Positions 22,950 through 56,142 of a stretch of DNA of 64,000 bases are shown in pieces. Position numbers and translations under genes: made by a program. The notes below the pieces were generated by a model. It saw only the letters and a list, made by a program, of their open reading frames with translations, was not told the origin of the DNA and ran no database searches. Position 1 is the stretch's first letter. Each line of letters opens with the position of its first letter. Source of the DNA: Muricea muricata (Eukaryota; Cnidaria; Anthozoa; Malacalcyonacea; Plexauridae); contig OY979718.1 of assembly GCA_963855995.1 (NCBI GenBank), positions 28,057,282-28,121,281 of the forward strand, given 5' to 3'.

Positions 22950-23326
22950 TCAACCTTCCACCACTTTGATGCTGGCCTTTTGGTTTCGGTTGGTGAAGTT
23001 GTTATTACGAGAACACATGTAGTGATAGGTACCAGGTTGAAACTTCAGTAGTAGCCCATGATACGATGGTGGGTAGCAATCAAGCTGTTGAGCCTGCTGG
23101 GTATTACAACCATTAATATCAAAGTTTGAAGGTACATCACTCGCTTTTTTGAAATGACCGGCTGTTGCCATTGCGATTGCAATATCGGCCCCAGTGGTCG
23201 TGCCTTCGTCATCTTCATCCGGTGCATCAATAATTGTCGCTGTATCAAAAAGAGTATCTTCGGTGTCCTTCAGTGGATAACTGACGTCAGCACTACTAAT
23301 AGCAACCAAGTTGTTTCGATCGGTTT
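22950..23326 (-). CDS. DD3-3-like gene, exon 10 (terminal)
   Basis: Acceptor TTTTGAACAG before 23326, phase 1 entry; 125 codons to TGA at 22952-22950. Encodes [10 protein letters not shown], an acidic stretch (DAPDEDDEG) and the family hallmark [17 protein letters not shown] near the C-terminus, ending [13 protein letters not shown] and YHYMC contribute cysteines and histidines that could bind metal, but that is a guess. Confidence 0.88.

Positions 23327-56142: not shown

Follow-up and report, generated by a model that had tools for sequence, protein, structure and literature searches.

A DD3-3-like gene with long introns and a frame break in exon 3, from an expanded family in an octocoral genome

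Results

A ten-exon gene on the minus strand of the window

The window (the whole 64,000-nucleotide stretch of DNA analysed) carries an interrupted gene that spans 33,193 bp. An earlier note, made from the raw sequence, had assembled this gene from ten minus-strand pieces; after excision and joining, the pieces were found at the coordinates it had claimed, and all nine introns between them read GT...AG. The exons are listed below with the evidence for each, where the spliced alignment is that with the protein of a paralogue at 50.20 Mb of the same contig (C3_50.20).

55975..56142, minus strand: exon 1, with the start codon, a signal peptide (by eye) and the mature N-terminus, identical at 11 of 16 positions to the HrSMLP1 Edman peptide
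54803..54892, minus strand: exon 2, 90 bp; seven paralogue models have a counterpart of 72-84 bp
51709..51866, minus strand: exon 3, 158 nt (C3_50.20 has 160 nt); holds the frame break
50837..50995, minus strand: exon 4; joined pieces and spliced alignment
35963..36175, minus strand: exon 5; joined pieces and spliced alignment
31338..31544, minus strand: exon 6; joined pieces and spliced alignment
27749..27929, minus strand: exon 7; joined pieces and spliced alignment
27055..27114, minus strand: exon 8, 60 bp; most paralogue models have a counterpart of 60-66 bp (exceptions: C5_17.72 and C5_17.74)
26053..26345, minus strand: exon 9; joined pieces, spliced alignment and genome search with the protein
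22950..23326, minus strand: exon 10, with the C-terminus and the normal stop codon; joined pieces and spliced alignment

The alignment was made with a purpose-written splice-aware protein aligner, which was given 34.1 kb of the window as target and no junctions. It returned ten exons and reproduced 9/9 of the splice joins proposed earlier; the outer ends (the first eight and the last few residues) lie beyond its coverage and keep the placement of the earlier note. The exons align along positions 1-620 of the 620-residue query, in line with the roughly 600-650 residues of DD3-3-like proteins, and eight introns agree in position and phase between the window copy and C3_50.20. The two exons too short to show as open frames have counterparts of similar length in the paralogue models listed above, and the introns make up 94.3% of the span, which agrees with the proposed value of about 94%. 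As far as sequence can settle it, the exon model with its nine junctions is settled. In view of the unusually long span and the retroelement genes inside it, one might divide the ten pieces among more than one gene or take them for pseudogene fragments. However, the protein of a single paralogue runs through the whole set of exons in sequence, at the proposed junctions and in phase except in exon 3, which makes such a division hardly credible.

The predicted protein is DD3-3-like

On present evidence the protein is DD3-3-like, an identity that rests on one published peptide, on the family description in the same paper and on the assignment made in the earlier note. A hydrophobic leader, judged by eye, is followed by the pattern D-x-Y-x-x-NPRG-x-NNRL. 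This predicted mature N-terminus bears out the proposed family assignment and signal-peptide start: compared with the Edman peptide of HrSMLP1, DMYMQNPRGXNNRLNEN, the window copy has the 11 identical residues given above, C3_50.20 has 9 and a copy on contig C8 has 12. We counted three NxS/T sequons in the window copy and six in C3_50.20; five are reported for HrSMLP1 (excerpts of PMC6916515).

Searches of Pfam, NCBIfam and PDB sequences with the DD3-3 proteins gave no match above threshold, so that domains give no clue to a molecular function. The weak matches were dismissed as noise: in PDB, PyrR (E 0.84-0.9) and FhaC (0.57-0.59, and 0.055-0.92 with a C-terminal profile); in Pfam, under the curated cut-off, KH_GLD-3_1st (0.032) and SpuA_C (0.014, in 1/8 members); in NCBIfam, two families, each in 1/8 members, with a best E of 0.035. 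By eye, the C-terminus (F.P..L.....D.VH.QW.GTD ... GTYYYMCTRNNNF) suggests a cupredoxin-like fold that lacks copper ligands, and the N-terminus suggests a lytic-monooxygenase-like fold; we claim nothing from these impressions or from the weak matches. Searches for relatives with the paralogue alignment gave 17 pattern matches in other genome contigs and 22 in viral contigs, none of which was confirmed; each search rests on two short peptide patterns, and absence outside this genome is therefore weak evidence.

Exon 3 contains a frame break

The earlier note had further claimed that the exons join in compatible phases into one secreted protein. This part did not hold, because the frame shifts inside exon 3 (51866-51709). 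The joined exons amount to 1,906 nt, which is not a multiple of three, and the reading frame that begins at the ATG ends after codon 114 at the following stop:

51780..51782, minus strand: premature TAA

From exon 3 on, the remaining coding sequence can be read in a different frame, without interruption, as far as the normal stop at 22950. The junctions are thus right but one continuous protein is not, and the full protein is impossible as the sequence is written. A reading of the raw sequence had placed nine junctions over 33 kb correctly and missed a break of 2 nt. In all nine other copies that align at the break, six nucleotides correspond to the four of the window copy, and the frame is kept. 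As written, the window copy would likely yield a short secreted fragment of 114 residues, and its mRNA would be open to nonsense-mediated decay. Skipping of exon 3, worked out by hand as a possible rescue, leaves exon 4 out of frame.

Sequence comparison suggests that the copy was still under constraint until lately. Between the window copy and C3_50.20, dN is 0.227 and dS is 3.66; since dS is saturated, their ratio is merely indicative. Among 107 columns that do not vary between copies falling outside the C3:48.97-50.22 group, one is changed in the window copy, two in C3_50.20 and three in C3_48.97. Unique changes in the window copy and in C3_50.20, counted against five outgroups, numbered 40:29, 31:26, 30:25, 32:23 and 20:29, a slight excess for the window copy in four of the five comparisons and no clear acceleration. 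It would seem, then, that constraint held until almost the present day, and that the break arose recently, is allelic or reflects an error of assembly. As we see no other decay in the gene, we infer that the best fit is a young null mutation, a null allele or a mistake in the local assembly.

Whether the break belongs to the animal or to the assembly is a choice that the evidence cannot make firmly; we consider a biological origin rather likely. An assembly or base-calling error in a gene that is intact and expressed would fit an aligner that saw no further lesion, the 9/9 canonical splice sites and the retained conserved residues, and we regard it as possible though on the whole unlikely. Against such an error, the break lies outside any homopolymer. 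No second allele of exon 3 was found in the assembly, where the seven other matches to the exon are 73-83% identical. In addition, 15 of the 19 modelled loci (a set that includes the window and leaves out C1:97.70 and 97.84) aligned with neither frameshift nor stop, a count in which several models are partial and in which spliced alignment can step round a stop by way of a false intron. The lesions recorded elsewhere are one stop each in the C3 fragments at 49.01 and 50.26 Mb and a frameshift plus a stop at C1:106.67. A further exon 3 match was seen at C5:17713358, outside the modelled copies.

Two other readings accept the break and let translation pass it. An ATG at 51802, in the context CCAACATGG, which is a strong one, opens a frame of 527 codons to the normal stop, and without the break this ATG would lie outside the downstream frame; a restart there would give a product of 527 residues. 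However, the ATG sits within the upstream frame, whose own start context is also strong, and the product would lack the signal peptide and the conserved N-terminus, leaving a cysteine-rich secreted protein in the cytosol. We therefore think restart improbable. A programmed +1 shift at the stop, TCT TAA C, would restore the full protein; this stop coincides with the break, the frame entered by the shift has no stop before its normal end, and the site presumably resembles known +1 frameshifting sites. Against this, none of the nine other aligned copies, close ones included, needs a shift, and we give the idea very little credence. A recent or allelic loss of the frame, or a local assembly error, is the reading that we carry forward.

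Long introns, mobile elements and an intron of the window copy

Two introns and one element are described here.

36176..50836, minus strand: intron 4, 14,661 bp, the longest of the gene; 113-1,758 bp in the other models with an intron at this site
39122..47537, plus strand: BEL/Pao LTR retrotransposon of about 8.4 kb in intron 4, antisense to the gene, recognised by domains, LTRs and flanks
27930..31337, minus strand: intron 6, 3,408 bp, in the window copy only; splits an exon that is undivided in the informative other loci

The element in intron 4 has the marks of the BEL/Pao group. Pfam domains Peptidase_A17, DUF1759, DUF1758, DUF5641 and Integrase_H2C2 lie within 41455-47180, together with a reverse transcriptase match (RVT_1) below Pfam's cut-off; the LTRs of 244 nt show 0 differences, and a 5-bp target duplication was read by eye from the flanks. 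Given the identical LTRs, the insertion appears young. A nested insert of 701 bp sits in its 5' LTR; the insert ends in inverted repeats and has a 10-bp target duplication.

At the site of intron 6, 16/16 informative other loci align across in one piece; the remaining four of the 20 other loci (C3:49.01, C3:50.26, C5:17.91 and C8) are uninformative, and none of the 14 other models has an intron of this position and phase. The simplest reading is a gain in the lineage of the window copy. The C8 copy aligns poorly near the site and has a nearby intron in another phase, so it is not a firm outgroup for this gain. Intron 6 holds a dispersed repeat of about 1.05 kb and high copy number (29934-30983; 40 of 5,380 candidates were scored), whose top-scoring copies are mostly 86-90% identical. 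A single mobile element turned intron was considered and rejected: only positions 355-1404 of the 3,408 matched copies elsewhere, apart from the self-match of a foldback. This short foldback element (31203-31326, near the start of the intron) has 44-bp arms that are 93% complementary.

The 33-kb span probably comes from lineage-specific growth of the introns, which are long, have received at least one young BEL/Pao element and include one additional intron. The claim that most transposons of the window lie in the introns is only loosely true. For coding elements (12 ORFs of at least 130 aa, nine of them scanned with Pfam), retroelement domains occurred in four stretches: two are intronic, at 34849-35367 and in the BEL/Pao element, which is the largest, and two, at 295-1173 and 59099-59494, lie outside the introns. 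Downstream of the gene, an intronless frame of 329 aa for a rhodopsin-family receptor occupies 19377-20366 on the minus strand (7tm_1, E 8.5e-30).

At least 21 DD3-3 loci in an octocoral genome

A cnidarian source had been implied by the earlier note and is narrowed here to an octocoral. Beside cox1, mitochondrial contig C74 carries frames that we named by eye as cox2, atp8, atp6 and nad1, in a gene order that we take to fit octocorals. The same contig carries a MutS domain, and a mitochondrial mutS gene is a feature of octocorals (excerpts of PMC10167242), which identifies the host as one. A second cox1 match, with one stop, was seen on a nuclear contig (G000, C1:38414782-38416095) and is probably a nuclear copy of mitochondrial DNA.

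A six-frame search of the genome with the 522-residue downstream part of the window protein gave at least 90 matches, with 83 of 105 candidates scored. Grouped by position, they make at least 21 loci, some of them fragments: seven on C3 (window included), six on C5, seven on C1 and one on C8. Twenty regions were taken for spliced alignment. The paralogue at C3:50.20 Mb (L034) resembles the window copy in protein sequence (72% identity over 587 columns) and in the eight shared introns. It differs in that it aligned with neither frameshift nor stop, its modelled exons span only about 7.7 kb, intron 6 is absent, and the last coding part holds an extra intron. The window copy grouped with the C3:48.97-50.22 copies with support of 90/89, below the level that the tool stars.

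Nearly identical copies lie 1.25 Mb apart at C3:48.97 and C3:50.22 Mb (L032 and L035), each followed by a similar broken fragment (C3:49.01 and 50.26), as would be expected of a segmental duplication or an uncollapsed haplotype. On C1, the matches at 97.55, 97.70 and 97.84 Mb (L019-L021) have near-identical scores and a spacing of about 135-155 kb, which suggests a large tandem duplication.

Discussion

The gene adds a member to a family that is known and poorly characterised, and this family is expanded in the octocoral genome. With fair confidence, we read the locus as an octocoral DD3-3-family gene, one of at least 21 loci, with an exon 3 break that is recent or an assembly error and with introns grown in its own lineage. 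In literature passages on DD3-3 and DD3-3-like proteins, we found no description of an octocoral expansion. DD3-3-like proteins are reported from Cnidaria to Chordata and not in vertebrates, and a published tree shows one to four sequences per animal, as a sample for a tree rather than a census (excerpts of PMC6916515). At least 21 loci, fragments included, in one octocoral represent an expansion that can be tested, and the animal is colonial.

The closest comparison is HrSMLP1 of Halocynthia roretzi, which its authors called similar to DD3-3; it shares the signal sequence followed by D-x-Y-x-x-NPRG-x-NNRL, a similar size (about 74 kDa calculated) and N-glycosylation sites, and a domain resembling Ihog FNIII is reported for it. 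It is encoded by a single gene of seven exons, whereas the window copy has ten exons, is interrupted and belongs to a family of at least 21 loci (excerpts of PMC6916515, here and for the ascidian data below). The likeness to the founding member, DD3-3 of Dictyostelium discoideum (BAD93186.1), consists of the family name and a description by way of the ascidian protein only (excerpts of PMC6208332 and PMC6916515).

These proteins are little studied, and their relatives are tied to aggregation in Dictyostelium, to the response to microbial signals in a sponge and to allorecognition by the hemocytes of an ascidian. Knockout of DD3-3 leads to faster aggregation and compromised cAMP signalling (as cited in PMC6208332), and a sponge relative is up-regulated 3 h after exposure to microbial-associated patterns (excerpts of PMC6208332). 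HrSMLP1 is a proposed hemocyte self-marker, and an antibody that recognises a DD3-3-like protein triggers phenol oxidase release from ascidian hemocytes. We infer that the family makes secreted, cysteine-rich glycoproteins located at or outside the cell surface; by analogy with these relatives, they perhaps act in cell contact or in immune responses and defence. It is a long shot that the clustered octocoral copies encode secreted, self-marker-like glycoproteins, that colonies vary in the number of copies and in null alleles such as the exon 3 break, and that this variation plays a part in allorecognition.

The copy at C8:9.5 Mb (L051) has the N-terminus closest to HrSMLP1, with its 12 of 16 matches, and aligns over nearly the full length. 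Its 17-exon model, which is among the least certain, differs from the C1, C3 and C5 copies in most intron positions. This copy may be a gene of the ancestral type; alternatively, the set of introns may have been remodelled in the expanded copies.
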